NCBI GenBank assembly: GCA_963691705.1
Contig: OY829538.1
Span: forward strand, 49,503,151 to 49,567,150
Origin: Viola odorata
Taxonomy: Eukaryota > Streptophyta > Magnoliopsida > Malpighiales > Violaceae
Length of the DNA stretch: 64,000 bases
Direction of reading: 5' to 3'
Below are positions 18,166-61,155 of this stretch, piece after piece (positions within the stretch are counted from its first letter, which is position 1; every line of letters starts with the position of its first letter). Both the position numbers and the translations under genes were made by a program. The notes beneath the pieces were generated by a model, which worked only from the letters and a program-made list of their open reading frames with translations, was not told the origin of the DNA and did no database searches.

Positions 18166-18289
18166 AAAATCAAAAATCAATCAAAAATCCCTCTTTAGCC
18201 CGGCTCAAACAAAAGCATACTACTCTCATAAGCATTTTCATGCACAGCATAGGTTAGGAATATTTAATCCCTCTGTTAACTCCAGCATC

Positions 18290-18545
18290 TATCCAAATTA
18301 CGTGCCATGCATGATATTACTTGTTTGCTCTTATATCCGCGGTTTGCTCCGACGTAAGCAGTCACAAACAAATCCCGGTAAGCATCTTTGAGCCATCACG
18401 TCTTATCCTTCATGAGTGTAAGGGCCTGACTAGATACTAGTTGAGTTCGCATAATATCCAGGGTACATGCGCCATTAGACATGGGATAGCTATAAAATGA
18501 CGTGGGACTTTTATGATTTTCTCCACTCTTTTCGTTTCTTCCCTC
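18290..18545 (+). other. Conserved 3' block 1 (CB1) of element A
   Basis: Contains GTCACAAACAAATCCCGGTA, GAGTGTAAGGGCCTGACTAG, ATAATATCCAGGGTACATG and CGTGGGACTTT. Element G, an Athila-type element, has the corresponding string of words in the same order at 51915-52100 (GTCACAATTTGTACCCTGTG, GCATGATATCCCTGGGTA, CCATTAGACGGGGGA, GAGAGACTTT). B and D also carry it. Not coding. Confidence 0.75.
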
Positions 18546-19479: not shown

Positions 19480-19720
19480 GAATGCCCATGCATGTGCATC
19501 TTCATTTGAAGTCTATTCACTCGGATTGACATTGCGAACTGTAAATTATGTATCATGTTAGTTGCATCTTTATGAGTGTAAAACACTTAGCCTTGTTTCA
19601 GAGCGTGAGTGCAAACACTAATATCAGGTGAGGACTGCTTACGGCTGCAAATCGTGGGAAAGTCTTGTCCTTGGGGTCGTTACCTCCTGAGCAGGACGCA
19701 GACGCATTCTAGGTTCGTAT
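19480..19720 (+). other. Conserved 3' block 2 (CB2) of element A
   Basis: Contains GCATGTGCATCTTCATTTGA, CTCGGATTGACATTGCGAAC, GAGCGTGAGTGCAAACAC (19601-19618), ATCAGGTGAGG and GGTCGTTACC. The 18-mer at 19601-19618 is identical to 53067-53084 of Athila-like element G, where the whole block recurs. Present also in B (57945-58170) and D (4650-4905). Non-coding, function unknown. Confidence 0.75.
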
Positions 19721-19740
19721 CAAGGCCGCTGGCGATAGCT

Positions 19741-20757: not shown

Positions 20758-20818
20758 ACTGTAAGTTTGAGGTAAGACATGCCGTGTCGCCAAAATTCGG
20801 ATATCTAGGGGCAACTGT

Positions 20819-20866
20819 CTTTACTGCTTATCAAATACTTCGATAAGACAGTAAAGAGGGGGCATC
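20819..20866 (+). promoter_or_regulatory. Polypurine tract with abutting hairpin, element A copy 2
   Basis: Identical to 843-890: hairpin arms 20819-20832 and 20842-20856, then AAAGAGGGGGCATC up to the LTR start at 20867. Confidence 0.8.
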
Positions 20867-23800
20867 TGTTGATACCCGAATTTTGACGCCATTGTTACTT
20901 AATTTTAGCATTTCTGTCATTTATTTAATTTACCATCATTTTTACTTAATTTACAGTCATCTGTAGTTAGTTTACTATCGCTAGCATTTTTAGGGTTTTC
21001 CTCGCATTTTAGCAACATCGTTAGCTTCGTCAGCTTTCGAAAATCACGCTTTTAATTTTTCGGCAAGTATTTTCATTATTATTATCATTATTATTTTTAG
21101 CCTTAAAAATCACATTTTTAATTATCCGGCAGTCGTTTGCTAACTTTTTCTTCGTTTTAGGTCATCACACGAATTTTAGGATTTTTTATATTTTAGCACA
21201 TTTTTTAGTATTTTTATTATTTTATTATTATTCTTATTCGAGCTTTTATTGGACCCGAGTAAGCTTGCTCGGACAATGGCTTGACTTTAAAATATTTTCC
21301 ATCAACTAGTTGCTAGCTTCTTTTCTGCTCACAACGGTCTACAGCGTTTCGTGTAATTTTCGGCGTAACGTCTTTATTTTTCCGTTCAAACGTTTCACGT
21401 TTTTGAACGCAAAAATAAACACGTTAAACGAAAAATTCTCGTCCTTCGCTGTAGACGGTTAAACCCGTCGTATTTTTCTCTACGCGACGGTACCTTCGGC
21501 TCGAAAAGTCAAAACGTTTGGTCGCGGGAACCGGCTCGAGGCCATTTAAATCAGATGAAAGGTCATTTGATCATGGCCATTGATCTGGTCAACCAAGGAA
21601 AGTCAACCAGATCAATGGCCCTTGATTTAATGTGCATAATGCACATGCACAGTGCCAAGGGAGTGCAGCGAAGCAGCCCACGCCCGAGCCACCTGCTCCC
21701 GTAGCTCCTGTCCCTCCGCCATCATCACCGCTAGCGCCCTAGCTCCGCCACCTCACGCAGCCGTAGACCCGACGTCATCACAGCGACGTCATCACGGCCT
21801 CCACGCGCAGCACCCGCACCTCCTCCTCACGCGATCTTCGGCTATAAATAGCCCCCTCCTCCAACGCATTCAGGGCACCAAAAAAAAAACAGCAAGAAAC
21901 CTTGCTTTCTTCCCTCCCTCTGATCAGTTGCTCATATTGAGCGAAGATCGTCAAAGTTCAAAGTTTGAGAGTGAGTTTCTCTCTCTAGCATTTCTCAGTT
22001 TTTAGCCACTTTCTTGTTTAATTTCGTTTGGCTCTTGTTTGAGCAAGTTAATTGTTTTCTTTTATGTCATTAATTCATATGCATAACGTAGATTAAATAC
22101 ACTCCTTCAATTTTAAAAATTGTTGGATAGATCGCTCAAATTAATTAGTTTTCGATAATTAACAGTTTTGTCGTTTTTTCGAAATTAAATTTTGTACGAG
22201 TCAAACTAAAAATCGGGGTTGGTATAATCGGGAAGTCATCGAAGAGACGAACATTTCGGTACGAACGATTTTTAAATCGGCCACTTGTGGCCGGAGCTTT
22301 GCCGCCGGCAGTACGCTGGCGACCAAGAAAGGTGACGAATGAACAGTGCCAGGCCAACGGCACTGTTCACGCGGGAATGGGCTTGGCCCATTCCCTTTTA
22401 AATTCTCATGGGCCAGGCACTATTCCTGGCCCATTTTTCACTTCTTTTCATTCTTCAATTGGGCCCAGCCCATTTTCAATTGTTTTCAAAACTTCGGATC
22501 ACGTTTTTTCGTAAAATACTCATATGCGTTGTATGATTATTTGTCGTACTAACACTTTTAATTTTCTGTAATATCAACTGTTTATTTTCTGTAAATATCA
22601 ACTGTTTAATTTTCCGCACTTTAATTTTCTGCAATTTACTTTCGGCAATTTAAATTCAATACCGCCTACATGGTCGGTCGCACTTATCAACTGTTTAATT
22701 TTCTGCACTTTAATTTTCTGCACTTTAATTTTCCGCAATTTACTTTCGGCAATTTAAATTCAATACCGCCTACATGGTCGGTCGCACTTATCAACTGTTT
22801 AATTTTCCGCACTTTAAATTCCAGCAATTTACTTTCAGCAATTTAAATTCAATACCGCCTACATGGTCGGTCGCATTTTAATTTTCGTAAACATTCAACT
22901 GCTTTAATTTTTCGCACACTGCTGGAAATCCTTCCGCAAATTATCAACTGTTTACTTTTCCGCACTTTACTTTTCCGCACTTTAAATTTCAGCAATTTAA
23001 ATTCAATACCGCCTACATGGTCGGTCGCAATATCAACTGTTTATTTTCTGCAATATCAACTGCTTTAATTTTTCGCAAAACTGCTGGAAATCCTTCCGCA
23101 AATTATCAACTGTTTACTTTTCCGCACTTTACTTTCCCGCACTTTAAATTTCAGCAATTTACTTTCAGCAATTTAAATTCAATACCGCCTACATGGTCGG
23201 TCGCAATATCAACTGTTTATTTTCCGCAAATATCCAACTGTTTATTCCCGCATTATCAACCTGTTTTATTTTCTGCAAATCATTAAACTTTTTTTCTTCC
23301 CTGTAAATCGCCAATAGCATTTAATTTTTCTGCACTTATCAAAACAGCATTTCATTTTCGTATGCGTAAAATCCATCATTTTTCGCATGCAATCAACCCA
23401 GCATTTAAATTCTCGTATGCGTAAAATCAATCATTTTTCGCATGCAATTAACCCAGCATTTAAATTCTCGTATGCGTAAAATCAATCATTTTTCGCATGC
23501 AATCAACCCAGCATTTAAATTCTCGTATGCGTAAAATCACTCCTTTTTCGCATGCAATCAACCTAGCATTTAAATTCTCGTATGCGTAAAATCAATCATT
23601 TTTCGCATGCAATCAACACAGCATTTAAATTCTCGTGTGCTTAAAATCAATCATTTTTCGCATGCAATCAACTCAGCATTTAAATCTCGTATGCGTAAAA
23701 TCCATCATTTTTCGCATACAATCAACTGTCATCATTTTATCAAACTCAGCATCTCACTTTCGTATGCGTGAAATCCATCATTTCTCGTATGCAATCAACT

Positions 23801-24620
23801 GTCATTTAAATTTTTGCACTCATAAAATGGTTTATTTATTTCTCGAGCTATCACTAACACTCTCCTTTTGTAGGTTAATTTCAAGCTTCGCTCGAAAGTA
23901 CGCCTCACAAGTCCTTTTTATTTATTCGATGCTTTCTGCGAATATCAACTGCATGCATGATATATAGAACTGCTAGAATTAAAATCAACCCACATGAACA
24001 ACGTGTTTAAAGAGTTGCTTAAAATGCCATGTTCATATGATTTTAAATTCTCGCTTGTATTGACTGCATGTACATGGGGATTTTCGATCCCACATCAGTT
24101 TTCCACTATTAAAATCAATCATTTAAATCTGTACTCTGTTAGCAATCCATGATAGGATCACGTAGTAATTAGGTTAATCATGCATGGCCCGATGATGAAA
24201 AAAGAGGGCGCTCATTCAGTCTTACGGAAAATTCAGTCCCATCACGATCATAAAAAAGACTAAAGTGACGATTCCTCTAAGGGCCCCCTTTTTCAAAACG
24301 CATTTCTCAAACACCTTTTTAAACACCTCTCTCATCAACCGGTAACCGTTTTCGGATGTGTCTCGGGTGCCTAACACCTTCCCGAGACCATAATACGACC
24401 CCGAACCTTTGTCTGGGGTCCAGACCCCTTTTTTTTGTGCCTTTAGTTTTTTACTTATTATATTTCCTATGCCATGACGATTAGGGTTCCCTAAGCCTAG
24501 CAACCAAATTAGGGTGGCGAATTTATTGCATGCTGCGAGGCGTCCTTTTACGCCGAGCATCTGAAGGTCTCAAATTTCGTTGCACACTCGCGAATTTTTT
24601 TAAATTTCCGAGGCGCGACA
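20867..24620 (+). mobile_element. 3' LTR of element A, copy 2
   Basis: 3,754 bp, 15 bp longer than copy 1 because of an insertion in minisatellite 1 near 23130. Internal signals sit at: foldback 21333-21460, inverted W-box hairpin 21575-21620, TATA 21843-21851, GGGCC cluster about 22371-22476, minisatellite 1 at 22536-23281, minisatellite 2 at 23341-23816, U5 block 24330-24526 with the primer-site-like TGGCGAATTTA at 24515-24525. No gene inside. Confidence 0.9.
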
Positions 24621-27600
24621 CATGTCATCCAATTTTCTGTCATACAAGCATGCTTGACACAAGCCTAGAAAAGCATCTGCATCTTGCCCAGGAAATAACG
24701 ACCTCCAGGATAAGACTTTCCCACATCATGTAGACATAAGCAATCCTTACCAGATATTGGTGTTTGCGCTCACACTTAGAAGTAAGGCTATGTGTTTACA
24801 CTCGTAAAAATGCAACAAACATAGCACAAAGTCAGATTTGCATTGTCAATCCGAGTGAATAAACCTCATACGAAGATGCACATGCATGGGCATTCATATA
24901 ATCGAGAGGACTTTGCAAGAGAATAGAAATATGTAGTGGATAGACAGAGAGAAGAAAAGAAGAAGGAATCTGTTTTAGGAAGAGAGTGCTTTTTGGCAGA
25001 AGAAAGGGTTGTTAATGAGCAAGGCTCAACTGAGGTTACTAACCGGAGGTAAGGTGTACCTCGAGCGCAGTTTGCGAGAGTTTGGTGAAACTCTGAAGCT
25101 TTCCTTTGAAATGTCAGCATTCTTCTCCGCAAATTGTTATTTAAATACAACCTGAGACCCTTTCTTCGAAATACCCAACCGGGTTTTTGGATCTTCACAA
25201 GGAATGATCTCTTTTACTTTTTAAGACCATTTTGATGGCAAAGTGCCCAAATTTTTGATCTTTGATGGGGATCTCTTGATTGTTTTGAGACCATTTTGAG
25301 GGCAAAGTGCCCAAGTTTTTGAATCTTCGCGGGAGATGCTTCATCTTGATCGTCTTGAGGGCGCTGTGCCCAAGTTCTTGGATTTTCACAGGAGTGATTT
25401 TTTGATGGAGAGCTGACCCTGGGGCCCCTTTTGCGCTTGCTTTTGCTTTTGTTTTGCTGTGTTCTTTGAACACTTTTGATTTGATTTTTTTATTTTATTA
25501 TTTTTTTTTGAGCGAGCAAAGCAAGTGCAATTTTTGTTTGGTCCGTTGTCACTTCCGTCCTTGGCAGAAGCCCTCAAATCTTGATTTTTTTTTTTTTTTT
25601 TGCTGGGTTTCCTTCTGGCGTTGATGATCAGCGATCTTCGGAGATTTTGGAATCCCTCTTGCACAACCCAAGTTCGAGGTGCACCTTACCTTCAGTTAAC
25701 AAACTTAGTTGGGCACTGCTCATTATTTAGGGAGTTCAAGTGGATGTAAAAGATTTTACAAGTGGCTTAAAAATGAATCGAACGAAATGCAAAGGCAAGT
25801 GTCTGAGGACAAAAGAACGAGAAGACCAAAGAAAGGTGGAAGCAAAGAGCAAAGTCCCATGTCATCTTACTGCTATCCCATGTCTAATGGTGCATGTACC
25901 CTGGATATTATGCAAATCCCACTAGCACTTAGTCAGGCATTTGCACTCATGAAGGAAGTATGGCGTGAAGGCCCAAAATGCTCACAGGGATGTATTTGTG
26001 ACTGCTTACGTCTAAACATGCCGCAGATATAAGAGCTAACAGGCGAGATCATGCATGTCATACAATTTCAAATGGATGCACAAGTTATCCATGATGCAGT
26101 AACATGTTGGACATGCTCAATTTAAGGAAGGTTTGAAAATTTTGAAGGTAATGTGGATTTTATTCAAAGAATTTTATGCACATTTTGTAACAAATCTTAA
26201 CAGTTTTAGCAATTTTTTTTTTTTTTTTTTTTTTACAAAAAATGTGAGGGTATGACTACTCACGAAAATTTAGGAATAAATAAAAAGAAATGCCCCCAAT
26301 GCAAGAATGAATGATTGCACAAAAATTAAAGAGGTAGATAGATGAATGGACTTCTCTGGATGTGTGCGGCGGGGCCGCGAGGTCAGAGCAAGGATGTTGC
26401 CGCGGAGAAGTAAGTGTAGACCTCACTTTGACGTTGATGCCCACTGCGATGTTCTTGTAGGAATGTAGATTGAAACCAGGGCGAAGACCCCGTAAAGTTC
26501 GAATGCTGATGTAAAGCGGACAACAGGGTGTGGCCGCCGCAAAGGATAAAAATAGGGGGAACTGAGCTGCCGCAAATGGATGAGAGTGAGGCATTTCCAA
26601 AAGGTTGCCCCCAGCGTAGAATGCATAATGGACTCCCTAATACGCGCGGCAGGGTTGTGAAGGTACACAAGATGGTTATTCAAGATTTGATAAGAGGAGG
26701 ATTCCTTTATTTCGTTGAGCATTATGCAAATAATCATGGTATGCTTCGAGTTCCTGCAAAAATAAAGGAGAGACAATGGGTAGAATTGAAGAATGATTTA
26801 GGAAAATGGACAACGTAATTAATAAGTTTTAGACTCTCCCTTTTCTAGTGAGGCTTTATGCAGGTACTCCCAATATGATTTGGATTCTTAGACGTCTAAG
26901 CTCCCCGATGCTTCGTCGATGCCTACTTGAATGTCTTGGATGCTGCGACTGACTGGGATGTTGATGTCATAACGGCTCCACTTGAATACCTCGCCGAAAG
27001 CAAGTGCACGTCCAATCGGACGCGTTGCAAATTCATCCTTATTTGGATGCTAATGCTCACTCAAAAGTCCTCAGAAATAACTAAATCACCCTTGAACTTG
27101 GTCAAATTGCCAAGGGAAGATGAGCTCGAAATGACCCTTGATACTGGTTGTTTGCAGCTGCAATAGGTTCTACGAAGAAACCATCTCATTATGGCGACTG
27201 AAGAGTCATATTAACATTTTTCCTGATTTGCTCCTCGTTTAGGCGAGGAGAAATATTCCCTGCTGAGGATGGCCAATTGCTGAGGATTGGTTCAAGAAGC
27301 CTAGCTTGAACAACATTGGGAGTGACAAAAGAGAATCCTTGGTTAGCTGGAGATCCAGATCGCCATTAGGGAATCTTGCTTGTTGATTCTTTACTGAGAA
27401 GTTCCAACGCTTCAGCTTTTGTAGCACGAGCTTGCGGATAAAATGAGTGAATGCAGTCCCATCCACGTCAATGCTTACTGGCTCACAAATTAAAGGATTG
27501 ATCTTCACGTGATTATTATCATGTACACGCACAAAGAGGGCTTACTGAGAATGGTTATTATGGTCAAATTCAAAACACGATGGATTTGATCATGTTCGAA

Positions 27601-28149
27601 CTTTGAATTTACAGTCGGGAGCTGTGTAGGGCGTAAATGTCGTTATCGCACGAAACGAGAACGCATTATGTTGACTGGAGTCCCTGAAGGACACGCCTCC
27701 GTCATTGTTATGAAGGGCACTTTGGTGACAACAAATTTTCTGGCAGAGATCTTTCCAGCGCTGGTAGGAAGACGCCTTCTACGTTCAGTGATGACCTGGA
27801 GGAGGGATGTGGTGAGCTCTTTGGGGCGAATTACCGCTCCCTATGCCTTGCCCCCCGGTAAAAATGTGTTCAATCTTTGTTGCTCTCTGAAGCCTTCTTC
27901 TGGCCGTCATTTCACTTGCTTGCCCCCCAGTTTACCTGAAAGGGGAAATTAAATAGTAAGCCTGGAGGGAAGGATATCCCAAAATTTGAAATTAAAGATT
28001 GACAAAAATTGAAATATTTCAGAAGAACATGTGGGTTGCCTCCCACGGAGTGTCCTTGTTTATAATCGTAGGCTTGGCTAATGCCCAAAAATATTGGAGA
28101 TATTCCCGCTGAATGAATAAGCTGAATGGGTCCATTGTGCGCCTGAAGA

Positions 28150-29250
28150 ATGTTCATTCAAGAGCCGGTGGTCGGGTAGAGTCCTTCGACTAACCCTCCT
28201 AAAGAGATCCATCCACTCTTGAGTAAGTGATTGACCTTTCCTTCAAGGGGGAAACAGTTTCCTTTTGTGTGGCCCTGGGCTTCAGCATGGTACTCGCATC
28301 TTGCATTAAGATCATACCATTTTGAATAAGGAGGTCATATAAGTTTGAGTGGGTGCAATTTGCTCTGCTACCTATAGATGCTTGTAAATCTCTCCCAAAG
28401 GAAACAGGAAGAGGTGGCGGTTGAGGCAATGGAAAAGGTTGCCTGCATCCTGGTCGGTGGGTGGCAAAGCTGACATCTCTCTCTGTGATAAGCGATCTCT
28501 TGAGTGTTTCCTATAGCAACGATCTTTCCAAATTTGATTCCTTGTTCCACCCTCTCCGCCACTAGGACCGTGTCAGAAAAGTGGTTTGACGAGATTGAAG
28601 ATGCGATGAGTATCGTAAGGAGCTTGAAAGGCGCTTGTAGAAAATGAATTCTTTGTCGCTCAACGGAGGAGAGATTCCATCGGCTAATTCTTTCCATTTC
28701 AGAACATAAGCCATCACCAATTCATCGGTTCTCTTCTCTAGGTTCTGATCTTGACCTTATCCAACCCCATGTATCCAGTCAAGGTGAGCTTGGCCAGACT
28801 CTTTCTGAATAAATTGATCAATAAAGGTTCATGATGCACCACCTCTAACATCTTATTGCAGTAGTTGTTGAGGCAAGTCTAGGGGCACTCAATCCCGGTG
28901 TACTTTTCAAATTCTAGAATCTTAAATTTCTGAGGTATGGTAATCCCTGGTACCATACCCATATCCACAGGGCTGTTGGGTCGACGAGAACACTTATTCT
29001 TTCAATCTGTTGATACTTGGTCCCTCTTTTTTGGTGGTACCGAAACCAGTAGCTGATGAATACTCAAAGTATGCATGTGGTTGTATCTGATTGCCCCTAG
29101 GGGTTGAGTTCCCGAAGGCTCCGGAATGGTGAATTGAGTCGAATGCCCCTGAGGCAGTCCTGGGACTCCGGGTGGATCATCTTTTCCAGCGAGGTCAAGA
29201 GCAGGCCCCGTCAAAGAAGGATTGGGAGATGTATCACCTCGTCCAACGGT
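28150..29250 (-). pseudogene. gag: gag pseudogene of element D, copy 2
   Basis: Base-for-base duplicate of the gag relic at 8160-9260 with the same stops and frame breaks, so decay preceded the duplication. It keeps the KFKILEFEKYTGIECP segment, the AERVEQGIKFGK segment and the CEYHAEAQGHTKGNC knuckle-like motif on the minus strand. No intact frame. Confidence 0.75.
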
Positions 29251-29789
29251 GGCAATAGCAGTGTTCGGGATGGCCGATGCGATGTGCTGAAGGAGATTTA
29301 GATTAAAGAATGATGGTTGCCACGAACCGGGAGATGATGGGGTATGGAAGTAACAACGACTGCAGATGAAGCAGATGGCTTGCCCATTTGAGCAAAACAG
29401 GCGTAAAAACCAGGTGGAAAGCTCAATTGTTGCCCCTTCTCACCTTTTTTCCAGCTTGTTCAGCCCTTGTCATAGCAACCCGAACTTGTTCTTCCAATTC
29501 GGTTATCTTGGCTTTCAATGCCTCCTCCGTTCTACCATGCTCTGTCATCTTCCGTGTTTGACGTCTAATCGCGTGAATCTTGCGGGGAATAGTTTGCTTT
29601 TAGGGAGCAAGGTTTTCCTGAAAAATAAGCAGGTGAAATAATTATAAGTTTAAGCAATGATTGAATGCAAAATCTCATCCCGAGGTCTTCACGCTGCGAG
29701 AGAAAGAGAGGGTAAGTATAATAACAATGATAATATAGGCATCATAAAACAAAATCACAGACATAGAGAATTATAGAAATAATTGAGGT

Positions 29790-30926
29790 AACAATATAAA
29801 CATGGGAAAATCGCGAAAAAATTTGCACATGAAAAGTTGCAAAAATTTTCTGGACACATGGAAAAATTTACACAGAGAATTTTTGGAAACGTTTGTCAAT
29901 GTGAAAAATCGGGGGAAAAGTTGTACCCGTGGAGCAATTTACGGAGAAATTGCACCCGTAGGAAATATTATGAAAATCATGGATTTTTTTGGAGAAACGC
30001 GACTCAGGTTGAAAAACTGCAGAAATATTTAATACACGTGGGAAAACTGCGGACAAATTTGACACACGTGGAAAAATTGTGGAGAAATTTGGAAGCGTGA
30101 AAAATTGCACGTAAAAGATTGCGGAAAAATTTGTGGATATTAAGAAATTGTGAAAAAAATTGTAAACATGGAGACATTGCATGAAAACTTGCAAATATGG
30201 AGAAATTATGAAAAAATTATAAGTGTGACAAATTTGCGGAAAAATTTGCCAAAGTGGAGATTTTACGGAAAAAATTTCCAACATGGAAAATTTGCCGAAA
30301 AAGATTTCCAATGTGGAAATTCATGAAAAAATTTATAAACGTGGAGAAATTGCGAAATCAGTGGTAAAATGTGTAAAAATTGAGAAATCAGTTGTGAAAA
30401 TTAAGCACAGTCACAATATACGCATTTCAATATGATGCATAGCTGGGGTGACACCAACTATATCTAACTGGTTGGAAGGCTCCCGGACGATACCATAGAA
30501 GTGGTCCCTTAGTAAATGGATACGTGATTGCCTGTCGAACCATCAAAAATTCTAGGCGTTCACCCATTTAGGGGTTCGAGTCCGAGTTTGGGGTTCGTGA
30601 AAACTACCTAGGACACGTGTCCCAGGGCCTCACTACTAACCTCCTAATCTTATTTGGAAAAGGCCCGGTGGTAGGGCATTATGCGTGAGATGCGTATGCA
30701 ATGACAGTTTATCAAAGCGATTAACAACGAATCACGTGAACAAATTATACATGAAAAACAATAATCACGCATAAAGAATCATGTGATAATACAACAATTT
30801 ATCATATCAATGAAAATAATCATGTGCAAAATCATATGAAATAAATTCGGCAATTTATTGAAAAACTAACACCTAAAAAATAATTCCGGCTCAGACCCTA
30901 TTGTGTCCCTAGTGAAGTCGATAAAC
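29790..30926 (-). other. Leader of element D, copy 2 (minisatellite, conserved block, primer site)
   Basis: Duplicate of 9800-10936. The A-rich minisatellite occupies 29790-30410. The block shared with element C occupies 30427-30926, ending with the mutated primer binding site at 30906-30923 beside the LTR. No coding frame. Confidence 0.6.
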
Positions 30927-33353
30927 TGTCGCACCCCGCGAAAATGAAATAAACGTTCGCGAGTATACGACGAATCTAGGACATTACGATGCTCGGCGTA
31001 AAAGGACGTGTCGCAACATGCAATGAAGTCGCCACCCTAATTTGTTTCTAGGTTTAGGGAACCTAATGTCATGCATAAAAAATAAAATGCTAAGGCGAAG
31101 TGGGTCTGAACCCAAGAACAGCGGTTCGGGGTCGTATTATGGACTCGGGAAGGTGTTAGGCACCCGAGCCTCATCCTAAAAAGGTTACCGGATGAAGAGG
31201 TGTTTAATCATGCTTTGAAAAATTAAAAGTCCTACTTTAGTCATCATGCCCAATGGATAAAATTTAAATCTAACATTTCTAAATAATTCATGCACACAAG
31301 CGTATAGGCGGAAAAAAAGCGTGGAATAAATAAAAGGGAAGAAACGTTTACTTGATAAAGGGGTACGGGTGATTTTCCCCTTTTTTTACCAGAGTTATTG
31401 GCATGAGGAAAGAATAACGTTGAACGATTAAATATTTGGCGATTTCTGCACGCGAGTGAGAATAATTAATTAATTTGGATGAACAATTATCTAGGCATGC
31501 ATAGCGGGCGAGAATAAACGAGCATACAAGCATACAAGCAATAAGCATACGAAAAGTAAACAGTACAAGCATGCGGAAAATAAATAAACAGTACAAGTAC
31601 GGAAAAATAAATAAACAGTACAAGTATGCGAAAAGTAAATAGACAATACGAGTGCACAAAAAAGTACGAAAAATAAAGGCGACGGGCCAAAATTGGGACT
31701 AGGCCCACTAGGCCTAGAGATTGGGCCCTGGCAGGCCCACGGCTGGGCCCACCAGCAGGCCAGCCCAGCTAGGCTGGCCCTTTCCTTCCTCTTTCAGCGC
31801 TGGGCCTGGGCAGGCCCAGCTTCTCCTTTCTTTCCCGCGTGGGCTGCTTGGCAGCCCACTCTTCTCCTCCAGCTGGGCCAGAAGCGGCTCAGCTCTCCCT
31901 CTCTTGCGCATGGGCTGGACGCACCAACCAGCCCATCCCTTATTATTTCCTTTCCATTGGCCAACGCAGCCTCACCTTCTTCCCCTCTTTTCTATTTTTC
32001 CCAATTCCTTTCCTTTTCCAGTTTTAGGGCTGCAGCACGCAACCCTTTTCTTTCTTTTCCTTTTTATTTCTCTCTCTATTTTATTCCTTTCTTTCTTTTT
32101 CTTTCCGGCTGCCGGCGATGTGCTTGTGTGTTGATGATGGTTTGGCAGTGGGGCGGTTGGGCCACAGCGGTGGGGATGGTTTGGTCGGCGGGTGTGCGGT
32201 TTAGTGGCGGTGGTTGTGCGGCTTCGCAGCAGCGGTGGGGATGGTTTGGTCGGTTGAGGCGGCGGTTGTGTGTGGCGGAGGTGCGGCTTGGCTGTAGGGC
32301 GGCGTGGCTGTGTGTGGCTGTTGGCGGCAGCGGTGGTGAGGCTGGGGCTTGGGTTTGGATTAATTGGAATTGATTTGGTTTGGTTAATTTAGCTTGATTT
32401 TGGATTGGCAGGAGATTTTGGATTTTTGGTAGGGATGGATAATTGGGCAGAAGCTTTGTTCATAATTGAGAAGAGGAAGAGCGTGAATTGGTGCTGATTG
32501 CGGCTTGGCAGTTTAATTGAGTGTTGATTTAATTTCAAAGGATGGAATTGAATTTGTTGGGTGTTTTGATCGAATTAGTGCCGTGTGTGAATTGGTGCTT
32601 CCATCCCCCTTTTTGATTGAGAAAATAGGAGAGTATTTATAGGGGGGAAATGGAGATTGAGCCGGATGAGGGAGTAGAGATAATGATGATCATGGTCAGA
32701 GGTAGGCCTGGAAAATGGAGAGGGTGAGGCTCGAGGAGGAGAACAGTAAGGCGATGGAGGATTGTGCATGAACCAACGTGGGAAAATAGGAGGACCATTG
32801 ATCTTAGTTGACTTCAAAAGTCAACTAGATCAATGGTGGAGATGAGGTCTTTGGTTTATCATTTAACTATTTAGTTTAAGTAGACGATACGAGCAATTTT
32901 GCTAGAAAATAAATATAAACTCGAACCGAAAATGTCAAAACGTATAATAAAATAAAATAAAATAATTAGCACACAGTAAATGACGAAAAGTTTGCTACAT
33001 AGTTCGATAAAAATATTTTCTTATAAGCAATAAAGGTTCGAGCATAATAAAATAATAAAATAAAAATTGAGCGAAACGGAAAGGGATAGCGCGAGTTAGA
33101 CAAATACTAAAAATAAGTAGCTAATGAGCAGAGTTGCTCGACCCTTAGTTTCGAGAATTTGACTCGGGAACCGATATGGGTTCGAACGGGAAAAGTGATA
33201 ACAATGTGAAAAAGTGACGAAATAAAATTTAAATAACTGGAGACGTAAACATAAATATCAGATTGACGTAAATAAATGGAAGTACGATTTTAGAAAATTG
33301 ATGATAGAAATTCGAGCAATGAAAAATTTAAAATAAAAAATCGGGTAGCAACA
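30927..33353 (-). mobile_element. 5' LTR of element D, copy 2
   Basis: Duplicate of 10937-13363. TATA box 32631-32642, inverted W-box hairpin 32795-32836, GGCCC-rich block 31680-31950, U5 block 31024-31180 with TGGCGACTTCA at 31034-31024 on the minus strand. Confidence 0.85.
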
Positions 33354-33935
33354 GAGTGAAAATCCTATCCTTGTGGCAACCGTGCTCACACAGACGGCCC
33401 ATTAAGACGAGGCACGCCCCGGCATCCTTGAGAGTGAAAATCCTATCCTTGTGGTAACCGTGCTCACATAGACGACCCATTAAGATGAGGCACGCCCCGA
33501 GGAGAGACCAACTCCGTCCTGGAAGTGAAAATCCTATCCTTGTGGCAACCGTGCTCACATAGATGACCCATTAAGACGAGGCACGCTCCAGAGACGCGAG
33601 GTTTCAACGCTTGGGAGTGAAAATCCAATCCTTGTGATGTCCGGTCCTGATCAGATGGCTCACTAAGACGAGACACGCCCCCAGCCAATCTTTGACACAT
33701 GGAAAGAAAAGATACCCCAGCTAGTAACCGAGCGGTTGATACCCTGTGAAGTAAGAGCTGGAGAGGTATCCATATCACAGCAACACCGTCGTGGCAAGCC
33801 TAGCAGGGCTAGAGAGTTCCCCCTAACAACAAAGGGTGGCATGAATTTGAGCGCAACACGGGCAGAAGTAACGCTAATTCATCCTCGGAAATACTACCAG
33901 AAGACACAATGATAGGGCCATAAAAAATGTAGCTG
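33354..33935 (+). repeat. Four-unit tandem repeat in 3' region of element E, copy 2
   Basis: Duplicate of 13364-13945 with one change (G13755/T33745). Here the sequence continues uninterrupted into the rest of E at 33936, showing that this copy has the original right flank. Confidence 0.85.
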
Positions 33936-50007: not shown

Positions 50008-50880
50008 GAATACATCCATAAAATCCTTGAGCCACCTTGCCCTTAAAGGCTAGTCAACTGTAAGAAGCATGATGAAGACCATGAGATTTTTGAGATGTTT
50101 AACAAAGTGCAAGTTAACATCCCTTTGCTGCAGGCTATTAAAAATGTTCCTCGTTATGCTAATTTTTTGAAAAATTGGTGTGCTAACAAGTGTAACATGA
50201 TAGGTGTGAAAAATATTTGTGTAGGTGCAAATGTCAGGGCCGCGATGCAGCGAAAGCTACCATCGAAGTGCAAGGATAAATGTATGTTCTCCACCCTGTG
50301 TAAAATTGGTACTACTGATATTGGTAGAGCTATGTGTGATTCTGGTGCTGGTATCAATGTCATGCCCTTGACAATATACAACAGTCTAGGCCTTGAAAAC
50401 CTCAAGCCCACCGGGACCACGATCCAACTAGCTGAAAAATCCATCATCCGTCCCAAGGGAGTCGTGGAGGACGTCTTGGTCCAGGTTGGAGATTTCATAT
50501 ACCCAGCCGACTTCTACGTTCTTGACATGGAGGATGTCCAATTTGTCAAGGCCTCGGACATGCTCCTAGGCAGACCATTCCTTAGGACCGCCAAGGCCAA
50601 GATCGACGTCCATGACGCCTCCATTACTCTTGAGTTCGACGACGAGACCATCAAGTTCAACATGCTGGAGTCCATGCGATATCCTTCTGAGTTCTCTAGT
50701 GTTAACTTTGTTGATATCGTCGATCCTATTGTTGAGAAAGTTTCTCACTTGCATGTTGATGATCTTCAACATCTTGCCCTCGACAGGAGTATTCCGCCCA
50801 CCATGCTGGACACCTTCGCCTTGACACTTGTGACTTCTGAGCACTCAATTATTGATGTTATTGGCCCTATTGTTACATAA
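50008..50880 (+). pseudogene. pol: Athila-type aspartic protease region, element G
   Basis: The frame continues from gag with TQEYIHKILEPPCP, hits TAA at 50044-50046, then is open from 50047 to 50880. VNIPLLQAIKNVPRYANFLK is the Athila pre-protease motif. CDSGAGINVMPLTIYNSLGL (about 50335-50394) contains the DSG active site of a retropepsin, followed by IQLAEKSIIRPKGVVEDVLV, DFYVLDM and LLGRPFLRTAKAKIDV, all standard for Athila proteases. The enzyme would cut the polyprotein inside particles. The active-site residues are intact but the stop and the frameshift upstream prevent normal expression. Confidence 0.85.
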
Positions 50881-50963
50881 GTTTCCGATCTTAACGCTGA
50901 CAGCTTTACACATCGTGCCCTCGATGGGAACATCACTACTAATGCACTAGCAGAGGCCCTTGG

Positions 50964-51440
50964 ATGGACGACCGTCTAGGTCAAGACACTCTCACCAGTC
51001 CTAGGCGCCCCTCAGCTATCTCCAGTAGCTTTTGTACCCACTTCTGTTGTCCCCAAAGCCATGGCACCAACCCCAGCCCAACTGATACCGATACCGCCTT
51101 GACACGTTTCAAGGCCAAGATGCCCAATACCAACCCAGCTCCACATCTTGCCCATGACAGGATCAAGGGCAAGACGCCTTGTCACGATAAGTTGCTCTCT
51201 CCTAAGACCTTTGCTACTGGACAACATATTTTACTTTACAAATCTCGGCTTAGGCTCTTTTGCAGAAAGTTGAAGCCTCGGTGGACTGGCCCTTACCTTG
51301 TCAAGAAAGTGTATGATCATGGTGTGGTCGCGATTCAGAGTATGGACACAGGTCTCATTTCTAAAGTGCAAGACCACAGAGTGGAGTTGTTACAAGAAGG
51401 TTTCCACCCCCTGAAGGTAGACCCACCTGACCAGGCCTAG
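50964..51440 (+). pseudogene. pol: Integrase carboxyl tail, element G
   Basis: An open frame to TAG 51440. Its last 85 residues (from about 51208: GQHILLYKSRLRLFCRKLKP, RWTGPYLVKKVYDHGVVAIQ, then KVQDHRVELL) are the carboxyl part of an Athila integrase. The earlier residues do not fit any domain and come from the deletion junction. Everything from reverse transcriptase to the integrase core, normally well over 2 kb, is missing between 50880 and about 51200. Confidence 0.75.
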
Positions 51441-51914
51441 ACAGTCAGCACACGTCGAGGTCCCGACGATTAAATAGGCCGCACTAGAGGTATCTCATAT
51501 GTTGTTCCACCCCTTTCTCCTTCCCATATCTTTTTCTTGCCCTCGAGGAGGGTTCAAAATAATTTTTACTACTTTCCTTTAATTTTATGTACTATACTCA
51601 TTTAATTTCTTTTGAACTCTTTCGTATACCCTTCCCGCATTGAGGACAATGCGCTACCTAAGTGTAGGGAGGGATTTATTTATGTTTTCGTTCGTGTGCT
51701 TGCCTGCATGTTTAAATTTCCGCTTGCTGCATGATTCCATGTTCTTCGGATTTTTCAAAAAAATTTCGAATTTTTAGATTTTGCTAGGAATTTTCCCACT
51801 GCACCGTTTTAAAACCCTCATAATTGACATGCATTTTTGATTTCTGATGCATGGGAGAAACTTGTCATTCATTGCATCTATGTCTGACCATGCATATCTA
51901 GACCTGCTAGCCCT
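51441..51914 (+). other. Start of 3' region of element G with purine motif
   Basis: Non-coding. GCATTGAGGACAATGCG (about 51637) followed by TAAGTGTAGGGAGGG is the purine-rich signature commonly found downstream of Athila integrases. No gene. Confidence 0.55.
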
Positions 51915-52100
51915 TATGTCCAGTCATGCCCTAGACACCAGTAGTCACAATTTGTACCCTGTGAGCACATTGAGCTTCATGCCCTTTATTCATGTGTGAT
52001 TTAATGCTCGACTAGGCACTGGCTAGGTTTGCATGATATCCCTGGGTATAGGAACCATTAGACGGGGGAAAGCAATGAAACGACGAGAGACTTTGCAATT
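51915..52100 (+). other. Conserved 3' block 1 (CB1) of element G
   Basis: Matches A 18290-18545 in order and wording: GTCACAATTTGTACCCTGTG, TTCATGTGTGATTTAATGCTC, ACTAGGCACTGGCTAGG, GCATGATATCCCTGGGTATA, CCATTAGACGGGGGA and ACGACGAGAGACTTT. A is a Tat-type element, so the block crosses lineages. Confidence 0.7.
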
Positions 52101-52959
52101 TTATTTTGTTTTATTTTTATCTTTTCTGTTTTCTCTCTTTCTCCATTTTTTCTTTCCTTTTTCATGCCCTCGACACCCTTGTTCTCTCTTCTAACCACTT
52201 GAGCCTTTTCTTTGACCCTTCCTTGGCAGGTGAGTAACACTCTTCATCACAAAAGGCAAGGGCTAGATTCTGAAGAAGATATGCGTGGGGAGGAAAAATA
52301 TAGATCAAGGGCAAGAAAGAGCAAGTGCAGAAATCAAAAATCGAGGCCACGACAGCAACATTAGATTACTTCCTTATTACACCAAAACTCAAGTGTAGGG
52401 AAGTAAAGTCATATATCAAGCCCTCGAAGTCAAACGCTCAAGAAGTATTTAAAGATTGCCAGCTCCAGTTCTGAGAGTGAGCCAAGGAAGAAAGATTCGT
52501 GCCTGCTTACTAGATATTAAAAAAAAAAAAAAGGGAAAAAAAAGGAAAAAAGAAAATCAAATTAAACTTAAATAAAAGTAGAGCACGCACAGCAAAAGGC
52601 AACCATTTCGAGCCCTCGAAGCAGACAAAAGATCTTCCCCACAGAAGAATACTGAAGCCATCGTCTAGCCCTTGCCTTCCGCCCTCTTCAGCGGGTATTA
52701 CTCACCGACTCGCCTTCCTTCTAGCCAAGGAATCCTCCACCTCCAGATTTGTTATCTCCTCCTCTGTTTCTTTTCTTTCTCTTTTCTTCTTTTACTTCTA
52801 TTTTACTTTCCCTCCTCTTCTTTCTTTTCCTTCTCTTTTCTTCTTTTTCTTCTATTTTACTTTCCTTCCTCTTCTTTCTTTTCCTTCACACCTTCCCCTA
52901 CCCCTTATTGCTCTTTTCCTTTTCTCTTTTTCTTTCTGCAAATTCGTCTCTGATCGCTA
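52101..52959 (+). other. Pyrimidine and purine tracts in 3' region of element G
   Basis: CT-rich stretch (52090-52190), a CTCAAGTGTAGGGAAGT purine motif (52389), a purine run (52508-52555), and a long CT-rich stretch (52750-52940) with a duplicated unit of about 60 bp around CTTTTCTTCTATTTTACTTTC. The arrangement of tracts between CB1 and CB2 parallels that of A and B. Short frames here are compositional. Confidence 0.5.
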
Positions 52960-53190
52960 GATTGCCCTTGCATGTGTTCTAATGTACTGGGATTGATGTG
53001 CAAACTTTGCCTCGTGTTGTGTTAATTGCATTTTTGAGTGATTAGCCTAAACACGTATTTTGTTGCGAGCGTGAGTGCAAACACATATCTAGGTGAGGGT
53101 TGCTGGTGAATAGGCTTGGTCTGGAAAAGTCTGATTGATAGGGTCGTTATCCTATTAGTCTGATGCAGGTGCTTTTCTAGGGTTGGATGT
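52960..53190 (+). other. Conserved 3' block 2 (CB2) of element G
   Basis: Contains TTGCATGTGTTCTAATGTAC, GGGATTGATGTGCAAACTTT, TTGCATTTTTGAGTGATTAG and GAGCGTGAGTGCAAACAC (53067-53084, identical to A 19601-19618), then ATCTAGGTGAGGGTTGC and GGGTCGTTATCC. Same order as in A, B and D. Not coding. Confidence 0.75.
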
Positions 53191-53309
53191 GTTTTGGTCG
53201 AGTGTAGTTTGTCGAATGACTTGTCTATTATGTGTGTTATGATGTTGAAGATGTATGTCACTATATGAGGAGGTTTTTTAATTTTGTTAATACTCGAGGA
53301 CGAGCATTG

Positions 53310-53322
53310 GGCAGTGTGGGGA
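53310..53322 (+). promoter_or_regulatory. Polypurine tract of element G
   Basis: GGCAGTGTGGGGA directly before TGTTTGATAG, preceded by CTCGAGGACGAGCA. This is the usual boundary between the internal region and the 3' LTR in Athila elements. Confidence 0.75.
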
Positions 53323-53972
53323 TGTTTGATAGCATGTTTTATGGGTATGATTTTATCCTCTTTTCTAGCCTTTTTGGGGGCTTGATTCTTCTATTTGACC
53401 CTTATTTCTATCTTTATTGCAAATCAGCCCCAAAAGGAGAAAAAGAGCGAAACGATGCATTTTTGGAAGAATTCTTGGGATTTCAAGCTTCAAGGCCTAG
53501 AAGATCAGAATGTCATCGAGCCCTCGACGCTAACCAGACCAGTGAGCAGTCTCGTGCCCGCGACGCTTCTACATCAGTTTTTAATCGAAAGCCAAAGAAA
53601 TGAATCTCCGAAGATTCCCACGGGATTCCTTGCGCATCTAGAAGATCCCAGAATATTCCAACGCACTCCATGTGCTGTCACTCTCTCCCCTTAGCTGGAT
53701 TTTGTCCTCTTGTGGGCTAGACACTATATATACCTTTAGTTTTAGGGTTTTAGGATCATATCTCATTTTTAGTTGTTGGCAGTCGCCTCTTAGGTTTCTT
53801 TTCTGGGGATTTGTTCCTCCCTTTTGTTGGAGCAGCTGCCACCATTAATCCTTCTTTAAACCGGAGCTTTTAAGCTCCGGCCGGTATTTATTAAGCTTTC
53901 ATTCCCTTTCTTGTCTCTTTACTTATATGTTATTTATTAGATTTGTTTTTATTACTTGTTAGCATGAGCGCC
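53323..53972 (+). mobile_element. 3' LTR of element G, first 650 bp (interrupted by element B)
   Basis: Starts TGTTTGATAGCATG; CTATATATACC at 53724-53734 is the TATA box; GTTAGCATGAGCG at the right end recalls the AGCATGAGTAGC segment of Athila LTRs. Element B begins at 53973. The last five bases, GCGCC, are the expected target duplication of B. A hairpin, CCGGAGCTTTTAAGCTCCGG (53861-53880), is a perfect 20-bp palindrome. Confidence 0.75.
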
Positions 53973-54859
53973 TGTCGCGCCCCACGAAAAAGTAATTCGC
54001 GAGTGTGCAACAAAATTTGAGACCTTCAGATGCTCGACGTAAAAGGACGCCTAGCAGCATGCAATGAAGTCGCCACCCTAATTTGGTTGCTAGGCTTAGG
54101 GAACCTTAATCGTCATGGCATAAGAAATATAATAAGTAAAAAAACTAAAGGCACAAAAAGGGGTCTGGACCCCAGACAAAGGTTCGGGGTCGTATTATGG
54201 TCTCGGGAAGGTGTTAGGCACCCGAGTCACATCCGAAAATGGTTACCGGTTGATGAGAGAGGTGTTTAAAAAGATGTTTGATAAAATGCGTTTTGAAAAA
54301 GGAGGCCCTCAGAGGAATCGTCACTTTAGCCTTTTCTATGATCATGACCGTTCAGGAATAATAAAAAAATCTTTCTGACGGGGTTACCTTTTATCAAGAT
54401 TGATTAATTATTCCTGATCGTAACGTGATGGGACTGAATTTTCCGTAAGACTGAATGAGCGCCCTCTTATTTCATCATGGGGCCATGCATGATTAAATTA
54501 ATTCCTACGTGATCCTAACATGGATTGCTAACAGAGTACAAATTTAAATGATAGATTTTTGAAGTGGAAAACTGATGTGGGATCGAAAGTCCCCATGTAC
54601 ATGCAGTCAATATAAGCGAGAATTTAAAATCATATGAACATGGCATTTTAAGCAACTCTTTAAACACGTTGTTCATGTGAGCTGATTTTAATTCTAGCAG
54701 TTCTATATATCATGCGTACGATTGATATTTGCGAAAAGCATTGAATAAATAAAAAGGAACGAAAGGCGTACTTGCGAGCGAAGCTTGAAATTAAAACCTA
54801 CAAAATGAGAGTGTTAGCGATAGCTTGAGAAATAAATAGGCAATTTTATGAGTGCAAAG

Positions 54860-57910: not shown

Positions 57911-57944
57911 AAATGCTTTTGTTACCAGCGGCCTTGATATGAAC

Positions 57945-58170
57945 CTAGAATGCATCTGTATCTTGTTCAGGAGGTAACGACCCCAAGGACAAGACTTTCC
58001 CACGATTTGCAGCCGTAAGCAACCCTCACCTGATATTAGTGTTTGCACTCAACTCTGAAACAAGGCTAAGTGTTTTACGCTCATAAAGATGCAACTAACA
58101 TGATACATAATTTTCAATTCGCAATGTCAATCCGAGTGAATAGACTTCAAATGAAGATGCACATGCATGA
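57945..58170 (-). other. Conserved 3' block 2 (CB2) of element B
   Basis: Minus-strand counterpart of 19480-19720, including GTTGAGTGCAAACACTAATA, TCAGGTGAGGGTTGCTTACG and GTCCTTGGGGTCGTTACCTC. Very close to A. Confidence 0.8.
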
Positions 58171-58269
58171 GCATTCTAATAATCCATGGGACTTTTACGG
58201 AAAAGAATGAAAGGACATGAAACGTCCGGAAATGAGTTTGTTTTGGAAAGGATTGCTTTGCTGGAAGGT

Positions 58270-58745: not shown

Positions 58746-59214
58746 GCTGTGCTTGCTTTGGCTCTTCGACTGTTTGTATTCTTCGAATGTCTCTGAGCAT
58801 TTCTCTCTTTTCTTTTCTTTTCCCTTTTCCACTCTCTCTTTTCTTTTCTTCTTTTTTCCTCTCTTTTTTCTTTCCTTTTTTTTTTTTTTTTTATATATAT
58901 TCCCCCATTTTTGATTTGATTTGAAATGCAACAGAGCAGAGCAAGCACACCCTTTGTCTTAATCTCTTCCCCTTTTGTCTTGAGGCCTCGGACTTCGTCG
59001 TTGCTGCTTCTTCGGTGATAGTCCTTAGCGATCTCCTGGTTACCTTTTCCGTCCCTTTCATCGTGTTCTTGAACCTGACGTACTCGTACTTCTGGCTGGC
59101 AATCTTATCTGAAACTGCTCTTTGGCTCCCGGGGCATGAGTGATATTGAAGTTTTGGGGAGTGATGACATATATGGTGGAAAGAGGGAAAAAATGAAAAA
59201 AGTGGAGAAAATCG
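58746..59214 (-). other. Purine tract and spacer in 3' region of element B
   Basis: 58800-58905 is almost pure CT on the plus strand (purine on the element strand), with a TATATATA stretch near 58893. 58940-59214 is the spacer homologous to 18585-18815 of A. No gene. Confidence 0.6.
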
Positions 59215-59430
59215 TAAAAGTCCCATGTCACTTTATAGCTATCCCATGTCTAAATGCGCATGTACCCTGGATATTATGCTAACCCAACTAGTATCTAGTT
59301 AGGCTCTTACACTCATGAAGGATAAGGCGCGATGGCTCAAAGATGCTTACCGGGATTTGTTTGTGACTGCTTACGTCGGAGCAAACCGCGGATATAAGAG
59401 CAAACAGGTAATATCATGCATGGCACGTAA
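59215..59430 (-). other. Conserved 3' block 1 (CB1) of element B
   Basis: Minus-strand counterpart of 18290-18545, with the CCAGGGTACATGCGC and TGACATGGGACTTTTACG words. Very close to A. Confidence 0.8.
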
Positions 59431-61155
59431 TTTGGATAGATGATGGAGTTAACAGAGGGATTGAATATTCCTAAACTATGCGATGCATGAAAATTCTTAT
59501 GAGAGTAGTATGCTTTTGTTTTAGCCGGGCTAAAGAGGGATTTTGATTGATTTTTGATTTGTGACTGATTGATGGTTTGATTGCTAGAGGGTTTGATTGC
59601 TAGACGTTGGGGGACGACTTATTTGCAAGGGTCTAATGAGAACCTATGGTTGCCCTCAGTGGGCCCGACGACCGTACTCGACTTAAAGCTAACAAAGTGA
59701 GCAGGAATGAAAACAAATTTAAATAAAGGGGAAAGAAAGATGGACTCCCCTGAACTGTGCAACGGGGCTGCATGGGCGTCTTCCACGAGCTCCACGCGGA
59801 TGACAGCGAGATGCTTCCAGTCCCTGTGGGGTGCAGAGGGGACAATAGAAAGGGAAATTAATTTGAAAATGAAAATGAGATAAGTTCAGGGATTCTCCCT
59901 TCTTTTAACTCGGCTTTCCGAGGGTGATTATGAGGTGGTCCCGGTTCTGGGATGCTTTGCTTTGATGTGCTGATTGGTTTCTTTTTCAACTGCTTTGCGA
60001 GAACCGCCGATCCGAGCCGTAGTGAGGGCGAGATCTGCATTTGGTCCATTTGCTTACCGGCCCTTGCTAGACCTTCGTTGATGGGCTTCGTGATTGCTCG
60101 GGGATAAAAGGGCAAATCCTCTGTCCCCGAAATGTGCAGCGGGGCTGCAAAGGGGATATGCTCACCGTCCTCATGCAGGCAACAAATGGGGGTGACCCAG
60201 TCCCTGAAAAAGATATGGCGAGCAGAAATGAGGAGTAAATGCAAGATAATTTTTAGCAGAAGTAATGTGATTGATAAGTTTTTAAGCTCTCCCTTTTAGA
60301 CGGGCCATCCGCGGGTCACCGCGGCGTGACTTGCATCGGATGCTGGTTTATGATAGCTTTGCTTTAGATGCTTGGCGGCAGCTCTTGCCTCGACGTGGGT
60401 GATACTTGCAGTCCGGCTGTCTCTCAATTGAAGGATTGACCTTCACCGTGTTGATCATGGTGCGGATGTTGGGAAATGTCTTGAACAAGAGCGCATTAAG
60501 TATGTTGATGGTGGTCCTAGGAGGACAGCTTTTTGTCGTGCCTTTTCCAGGAGTTGCAAGGGTGCATTGGGGGACCATGGCGTTTTGGTGATTAGCTCCT
60601 TCAAATAGGTGAACGAAGATGGGAGCCGATGTTGATAGTGTTCCGACAGCTCGGCTGGCGTAGGATGGGCTTTGTGACTTTGGTCCAGCATTTAGTATTT
60701 TGAGAACGGTTGTTTGCGATGCCGGTTGTGCTCGTAGCACTGCGACGAAAAGAAATTTCGCTTTAGATGGTGATGGTTTGTCTTAAAATCTTTCCTGATT
60801 CGCTCTTGAAGGTGGCCTGCTGCGGCAATTCAACAGCTCCTACGAGCAAAATTCTCTGGTTCTATCGTGATGACGAGCTGAGGCGTGGGACCTTATGCCC
60901 CTGCAAAAATTATGATTGATTAGTGGCGTTAGTCTACGTGACGTGTCTTACGTCTCGAGCTACTCCTGGGGAGCCATCCATGTCATGCCTCCTTTTGTCA
61001 TCTCACAAGTTAAAGAAAAAGGATAACAAAATTTTAAAATAATGAGCATCTCCTGAAAAAACTTGTTTTATTTATCTCAGGACAAATGTTTGTGCTAGAT
61101 TGTCAGGATAAAACCCTATGTCCTTGGTCTGGCCGAATGCGTGACCCGTGACACT
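59431..61155 (-). other. Proximal 3' region of element B with splice-like units and CCC-loop hairpins
   Basis: Non-coding. Only about two to three CTAGCAATCAAAC units remain near 59565-59605. On the minus strand acceptor-like sites CCCACAG/GGACT (about 59827), TTTTTCAG/GGACT (about 60210) and TTTTGCAG/GGGC (about 60905) match those of A, with donors GGTGAGC (about 60160) and GGTAAGC (about 60057). Hairpins: TGCAGC-CCC-GCTGCA (60149-60135) and TGCAGC-CCC-GTTGCA (59772-59758). Confidence 0.6.

Follow-up and report, generated by a model that had tools for sequence, protein, structure and literature searches.

Why should retrotransposons of two protein lineages share two long blocks of non-coding sequence near their 3' ends? 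The question is raised by a stretch of 64,000 nucleotides of the Viola odorata genome (assembly GCA_963691705.1, contig OY829538.1, positions 49,503,151 to 49,567,150 of the forward strand; hereafter the window, whose own numbering is used throughout), in which the Athila-like element G and the Tat-like elements A, B and D carry the same two blocks, CB1 and CB2. A first-pass annotation had proposed as causes either an ancient functional RNA or DNA module or an exchange of 3' regions between lineages. We are highly confident, based on the structure models described below, that CB1 and CB2 are the complementary arms of one predicted long-range RNA stem and not two separate modules. One stem accounts for the joint conservation of two blocks about 1 kb apart. 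The explanation as a whole, a single conserved stem in the sense RNA of Athila and Tat that acts in cis, is considered likely.

Predicted pairing of the two conserved blocks

The likeness of G to A, B and D extends to the sequence, order and spacing of the blocks, as had been claimed, and also to their orientation. With BLAST within the window, G matched D at E 4e-16 (CB1) and 1.7e-8 (CB2) and A at 2e-7 and 7e-7, and nhmmer profiles made from A, B and D without G recovered CB1 of G at E 6.4e-28 and CB2 at E 7.6e-23. When the same profiles were run on the reversed window, the best E for CB1 was 2.9 and CB2 had no match. An identical 18-mer reported for CB2 of G and A was found exactly at 53067 and 19601, on the forward strand in both cases. 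The blocks of G had been located correctly, and only their limits are best taken slightly wider: using the alignment to A, B and D, the profiles and the folds and duplexes described below, CB1 (the 5' arm) was placed at 51860-52100 and CB2 with a 5' extension (the 3' arm) at 52937-53190, both on the forward strand. Alignment and folding placed the corresponding arms at 18283-18520 and 19457-19725 in A (forward strand), at 59209-59446 and 57930-58211 in B (reverse strand) and at 5850-6091 and 4660-4945 in D (reverse strand). In all eight blocks, none of the six frames is free of stops, and a coding explanation was rejected on this ground. ARAGORN found no tRNA, and an Rfam scan of the G region 51400-53400 gave no matches at E up to 1.

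The window thus holds four independent copies of the module. A second copy of the D module (24650-26086, reverse strand) was not counted as independent, since it lies within a repeat of about 20 kb that is 99.86 % identical. The repeat is a tandem duplication (1-13945 and 19977-33935) with a boundary within the reverse transcriptase (RT) domain of A, and it is either a real recent duplication or an assembly artefact.

In minimum free energy (MFE) folds of the whole CB1-to-CB2 region of each of the four elements, CB1 was joined to CB2 through 58-127 arm-to-arm pairs; in G the partner of CB1 was 52937-53185. From sequence-only MAFFT alignments of the arms of these four elements, RNAalifold predicted 111 arm-to-arm pairs, with 420 of the 442 pair cells fitting and 32 pairs changed on both sides. 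Covariation contributed a net bonus of 11.9 to the total of -104.3 kcal/mol, and column shuffles (n=100) reached a mean of -50.3 (standard deviation, sd, 5.4) and at best -69.9, corresponding to an energy z of -10. The first RNAalifold runs, made with each block alone, gave weak local structures, and the stem was seen only when both blocks were folded jointly. It consists of approximately 110 base pairs interrupted by bulges and closes a variable loop of about 0.7-1 kb.

Duplexes of sub-arms further supported the pairing. The element's own partner was the best in seven of eight tests, the exception being the basal 5' arm of B, which bound the 3' arm of A more strongly, and the sense duplex was more stable than the antisense duplex in all eight. 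In G the duplexes with its own arm (apical -41.5 and basal -47.4 kcal/mol) were better than those formed with the 3' arm of any of the other three elements. Examples of arm pairings are GGGACTTTTATG/CATAAAAGTCCC in A, GGGACTTTTACG/CGTAAAAGTCCC in B and GGACTTTGC/GCAAAGTCC in D, and, at another place, CGTAAGCAGTC/GACTGCTTACG in A compared to CACCAGTAGTC/GGTTGCTGGTG in G.

Genome copies, lineages and compensatory change

The 18-mer occurs in 1,340 exact copies (673 + 667) in the assembly of 699,142,476 bases, its reversed form in none, and the D variant of it in 56. Forty places were sampled from these 1,340, and all of them lie on one contig; as they were drawn by the 18-mer of CB2, the sample is silent on elements without it (L001-L008 duplicate L009-L016 and were counted once). 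CB2 was present in 40/40 places and CB1 lay upstream on the same strand in 39/40, being absent from L016 and partial in L017, with 665-984 nt between the extracted arms. The copies fell into three groups: Tat-like (30 copies with A, B and D), G-like (L042 with G) and a group H (8 copies, including L017). L016 was dropped before alignment. L017 was kept for the grouping, the structure fit, the whole folds, the block trees and the loop-tract scan, and left out of the double-change tree, the G-U/A-C branch counts and the folds of each lineage separately. Of the 39 copies, 13 were folded whole and 13 were used with the four window copies in the alignments of Tat alone and Athila alone.

The lineages of these elements were assigned from their proteins where possible. 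A contains RT and RT_RNaseH domains followed by an additional RVT_3 RNase H before the integrase (rve), and B contains RT, RNase H and a partial RVT_3 (model positions 66-122) before rve; both thus have the additional RNase H (aRH) domain in the polyprotein which defines Tat (PMC6317226). No pol was recognised for D within the window, and it was assigned to Tat by its blocks only, which group with those of the Tat-like copies and make this a probable placement. The H copies were assigned to Athila by protease, RT and integrase of the Athila type, no aRH and an env-like open reading frame (ORF) after pol, as seen in the two that were examined over 10 kb. In these, L054 and L055, protease, RT-RNase H and integrase without an aRH match are followed by env-like ORFs of 755 and 743 aa. 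On 3' pieces of these ORFs, PF03078 (ATHILA ORF-1) scored 20.6 bits in L023 (within L055), against a cut-off of 20.2, and 16.8, below the cut-off, in L034 (within L054); the piece from L028 had no PF03078 match.

In G, the protease and the C-terminus of integrase are present and the part from RT to the integrase core is missing. We take both remaining parts to be of the Athila type. The protease of G agrees at 60-62 % with those of the H copies L054 and L055, and its integrase end and its junction of polypurine tract (PPT) and long terminal repeat (LTR) also match H; with RT missing, G is placed as probably Athila-like by these three features. A protein search with the integrase end of G gave one match, which had no name. 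The protease of G runs into the integrase C-terminus (50047-51437), and the same order and spacing are found in L051, a copy on another contig. G appears, from its sequence, to belong to a non-autonomous Athila family.

The first-pass annotation would have considered the module a chimera if it was confined to this locus and absent from other Athila elements. In this genome the H group, 8 of the 40 sampled copies, is Athila and carries it; the module is common to the sampled Athila and Tat copies and thus no single-locus chimera. The lineages do differ, as had been stated, but the sharing is less surprising than it was held to be, as Athila and Tat are sister clades in the OTA superclade (PMC6317226), and therefore common sequence would be old yet not impossible.

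The structure derived from the window fitted the H copies, which had not been used to derive it, in 75-82 % of the cells, compared to 32-49 % when the partners were slid by 1-3 positions. The whole folds of the 13 genome copies contained up to 140 arm-to-arm pairs. When Tat (8 sequences) and Athila (9) were folded separately, 114 and 109 arm-to-arm pairs were obtained, of which 52 were identical and 69 agreed to within one base, whereas only 0-2 pairs were in common in each of six shifted registers. The same stem was thus predicted from the two lineages separately.

On a tree of 42 sequences, 15 double changes from one canonical pair to another were found in 15 pairs, whereas slid pairings gave 1-7 and a rate-aware null, run 200 times, averaged 2.6 (sd 1.6) and never exceeded 10. 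Compensatory changes are thus more frequent than the phylogeny would lead one to expect, which is the mark of a conserved RNA structure. Single changes keeping the pairing were in excess (170 compared to 125.8 in the null, sd 12.4) and those breaking it were in deficit (100 compared to 128.8, sd 9.8). Changes from Watson-Crick pairs led to G-U rather than A-C in 38:10 cases on internal branches and 66:42 on terminal ones, a pattern which suggests selection on the sense RNA while the elements were active, fading afterwards. In a symmetric DNA alignment of the arms the ratio was 55:24, with A and B as close relatives and the counts thus not fully independent; this lax gapped alignment scored not far above shuffles, and only its G-U/A-C count was used.

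Several results weigh against one selected stem common to Athila and Tat. Single blocks folded alone were mostly no more stable than shuffles. When the letters of G were redealt among its changed sites, 90.2 pairs (sd 4.1) were expected and 99 of 133 were present, a modest excess. Among tiles of the window, those as good as the true partner numbered 7, 5, 114 and 5 of 3,528 for the apical sub-arm and 0, 48, 35 and 9 of 3,518 for the basal one (A, B, D and G, respectively); the own partner was thus among the best yet not unique, the apical sub-arm of D being the worst case, and full-length arms ranked worse than sub-arms, to the point of being uninformative. With a reversed 3' arm, the MFE fold of D still contained 91 arm-to-arm pairs, although the same control left none in A, B and G. 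The partial copy L017 formed only 27. The ratio of G-U to A-C was not significant on branches with genome copies only (66:50) or within H (16:9), and the G-U bias is partly built in, as the energy model for sense RNA from which the structure was obtained favours G-U. In a foreign Athila element, L057, neither a profile nor Smith-Waterman alignment detected CB1; the scaffold breaks off in an A-rich tract about 0.9 kb past the upstream purine motif described below, and the negative result covers CB1 alone. In Diaspora of soybean, a member of the Athila clade, the pol stop lies 128 bp before the PPT, with no further DNA there (PMC1142308); therefore it has no room for the module, and at least one large Athila-clade family does without it. 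The module is not universal in Athila.

L057 (NZ_QPKJ02000021.1) and L058 (NZ_JABGCL010000066.1) are scaffolds of about 9 kb, 99.7 % identical, in bacterial assemblies with CPCC strain numbers (Solirubrobacter and Geminicoccus). They were found by a protein search of genome contigs with the pol of H and carry a plant Athila-like element, almost surely as plant contamination of the bacterial assemblies. Protein searches of viral contigs with the integrase of A and with the pol of H gave no match, and sequence-pattern searches of viral and genome contigs gave none either.

Function and origin of the module

In the proposed mechanism, the sense (genomic) RNA of Athila and Tat would form one stem with CB1 and CB2 as its strands, the conserved bulges and side hairpin of the stem would be putative binding sites, and the stem would draw the end of the coding region nearer to the PPT and the 3' LTR. 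The side hairpin, with the loop U[CGUU]A, lies in the 3' arm (53128-53164 in G, 19661-19697 in A, 57960-57996 in B and 4690-4726 in D, on the strand of each module) and is closed in 39 of 43 copies; its sense z was -3.1 in G and only -0.8 to -1.6 in A, B and D. Some unpaired positions are invariant across 12 representatives.

We lean towards a cis-acting signal of the genomic RNA. G and L042, on different contigs, share the same loss from RT to the integrase core and the same 65-nt spacing between protease and integrase, and both keep the module. Athila families without pol are known and are probably mobilised in trans (PMC2410132). Such a family must keep a cis signal of its genomic RNA, and the retention of the module in the family of G therefore favours this role. 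Packaging or nuclear export, by recognition of the full-length RNA, would be the likeliest single task, though we suggest it tentatively. In the yeast Ty elements cis signals have been mapped to the RNA ends and the packaging determinants are poorly defined (PMC4974528). The absence of the region from Diaspora slightly lowers our confidence in ancestry, in a cis signal and in packaging or export alike.

Plus-strand priming, in which the stem would display a purine tract of the loop, or set an upstream purine motif, as a second PPT, is an unlikely alternative although such tracts are common. In 41 of 43 copies a mid-loop purine run scored higher than any of 100 shuffles. In G an A-rich purine tract lies at 52519-52556 (forward strand; purine-run score 38, shuffle maximum 13), and in A a purine tract lies at 18820-18937 (forward strand; 78, shuffle maximum 23). 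The Athila loops are also pyrimidine-rich ahead of CB2, as seen in G at 52755-52924 (forward strand, just 5' of the 3' arm; pyrimidine-run score 115, loop positions 629-799). The linkers of Athila4 and Calypso are reported to contain one extra PPT (PMC2829016), for which a purine-rich motif upstream of CB1, at 51639-51673 in G (forward strand; ATTGAGGACAATG...AAGTGTAGGGAGGG), is a candidate. The motif (ATTGAGGACAATG...AAGTGTGGGG) is common to the Athila copies tested, being found 185-219 nt 5' of the extracted CB1 arm in 7/7 H copies and L042, and also in G and the foreign L057; it was found in none of the three Tat-like copies tested. However, the loop tracts are highly variable in length and composition; those of D and L042 are marginal, those of L043 and L047 do not exceed shuffles, and priming leaves the selection on about 110 stem pairs unexplained.

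A shield of the 3' untranslated region (UTR) is, in our view, similarly improbable. By analogy with retroviral RNA stability elements, which are a precedent, the stem might bring the stop codon closer to the poly(A) or block decay factors and so insulate the RNA from nonsense-mediated decay. The position of the blocks is consistent with this, as CB1 follows the last stop of G by about 420 nt and the end of the integrase stretch of A by about 1.7 kb; however, in A and B CB2 is followed by yet another stretch, of tandem repeats. The terminal PPT of the Athila copies is situated about 120 nt beyond CB2. In G it is at 53314-53321 (forward strand), with the junction GTGTGGGGA-TGTTTGATAG and the 3' LTR starting with TG at 53323; the same junction is present in L042, GTGTGGGG in 6/7 H copies and GCGTGGGG in L028. 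A sequence beginning TGTCGCGCC is found after the start of the 3' LTR of G (53972-54347), directly after CB2 of D (4251-4629) and again near 10.9, 39.8 and 46.5 kb. These copies are probably LTRs of a D-type family, one of them inserted into or beside G.

As to origin, inheritance of the module from the common Athila/Tat (OTA) ancestor is quite probable, judged from trees and identities. Trees of CB1, CB2 and both blocks keep the 10 Athila apart from the 33 Tat-like sequences, with support of 0.996 (CB1), 1.0 (CB2) and 1.0 (both) for the Athila node and 0.786 (CB1) and 0.55 (CB2) for the Tat node. Because these trees divide the two lineages in the way that pol does, inheritance is favoured over exchange. 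The divergence of the blocks was compared with that of pol, as the first-pass annotation had suggested, and with that of the loop: identity between Tat A and the Athila H copies L034 and L023 was 0.57-0.61 in the arms, and 0.42-0.45 for nucleotides and 0.29-0.38 for residues in RT-RNase H and integrase, while the loop had only purine-rich matches. At the DNA level the arms seem to be about as conserved as pol, or more, with the caveat that alignment freedom flatters non-coding identity. A recent exchange, with one lineage taking the 3' region of the other by recombination or template switching, is thus very improbable: recombination is documented for Athila families in Arabidopsis (PMC2410132), but the trees keep the lineages apart, a block identity of about 0.6 is old and not recent, and the loops are alike in purine-rich matches only. 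A very old exchange may have taken place soon after the lineages split. Of the earlier proposals, exchange of 3' regions is accordingly disfavoured and an ancient RNA module is supported, as one paired structure and not as two motifs.

It is hardly credible that the arms are a non-functional inverted repeat, one that arose long ago by inverted duplication and whose halves have stayed similar through DNA-level gene conversion or template switching. The arms are complementary, and inner inverted repeats occur in the loop of D (5684-5735, the 5' side in sense, and 5022-5073, reverse strand; 52 nt, 81 % complementary, E 2e-9) and, weaker, in that of G (52229-52294 with 52633-52706, forward strand; gapped complementarity with a score of 19.5, equalled by 0.15 % of 2000 shuffles, the best of which reached 22). 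However, conversion would bring back Watson-Crick pairs without distinguishing G-U from A-C, in contrast to the ratios seen on internal branches and, with the reservation on A and B, in the DNA alignment, and the invariant unpaired positions also speak against it. The inner repeats of the D loop (4925-5850) and the G loop (52100-52960) differ in sequence, and no inner arms above shuffles were found in the loops of A and B; the inner repeat is not a general feature of the module. Equally remote is a sequence-level DNA signal, such as an antisense promoter, with pairing as a by-product: Retand elements have antisense ORFs in this region (PMC11963269) and two Transposase_28 ORFs lie elsewhere in the window, but letters change while pairing stays, as seen in the fit to H, the tree events and the separate Tat and Athila folds, and sense duplexes were the more stable. 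The two ORFs (PF04195; 35300-36718 and 41483-42460, both on the reverse strand) belong to other elements; this domain is typical of antisense ORFs in Retand elements.

Athila and Tat account for a substantial part of many plant genomes, and we know of no cis-acting RNA signal in them beyond primer-binding sites and PPTs. The pairing evidence suggests that their RNA genomes contain a control element that had not been recognised. In a wider picture, on which we are close to evenly divided and lean slightly to doubt, a giant long-range stem would predate the split of Athila and Tat, its pairing selected while the loop of about 1 kb varied, and would be a major cis control element of very abundant plant retroelements, with its loss confined to some families, Diaspora among them; the hypervariable 3' part, which seeds satellites, would lie in and around the stem because the stem insulates it. 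The conserved stem provides a concrete target for studying how Athila and Tat RNA is exported, packaged, protected or copied, helps to show how families without pol are mobilised and can serve as a marker for finding such elements.

Relation to known systems

Structured elements in the 3' portion of an RNA genome are familiar from the Rev response element (RRE) of HIV-1, which is closed by a long stem, and from the constitutive transport element (CTE) of Mason-Pfizer monkey virus (MPMV). Both have a much shorter span than the CB1-CB2 stem, and their export partners are known. A relation to them was checked by the Rfam scan, which gave no match.

No report of the CB1-CB2 structure was found in the open full-text literature, as far as represented by titles, the openings of abstracts and excerpts; Wright and Voytas 2002 and Macas et al. 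2009 (hypervariable 3' UTR) may mention conserved blocks. Descriptions of the OTA elements (Athila, Tat, Ogre and Retand) concern the same elements and the same place, the region from pol to the 3' LTR, with its tandem repeats and extra ORFs; in the excerpted text no conserved paired structure or non-coding block common to Athila and Tat was found (PMC6317226, PMC11963269). The Athila families without pol resemble G and L042, which lack RT to the integrase core; that study compares gag, env and pol, and the words non-coding, noncoding, polypurine and secondary structure are absent from the paper (PMC2410132). Diaspora lacks env and belongs to the Athila clade like G and H and, unlike them, has no room for the module (PMC1142308). 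Triplex-forming purine/pyrimidine tracts have been described in the 3' UTRs of plant LTR retrotransposons, and similar tracts occur here in the loop and flanks; that work, in its excerpted part, concerns local tracts and not paired arms around them (PMC3902901). The Sirevirus lineage, otherwise diverged, likewise has conserved non-coding signals 5' of the 3' LTR in plants. These are Ty1/copia elements, in which the signals consist of multiple PPTs, short motifs and an inverted repeat at the junction of PPT and 3' LTR, compared to a stem of about 110 bp spanning about 1 kb in Athila and Tat (PMC2829016).

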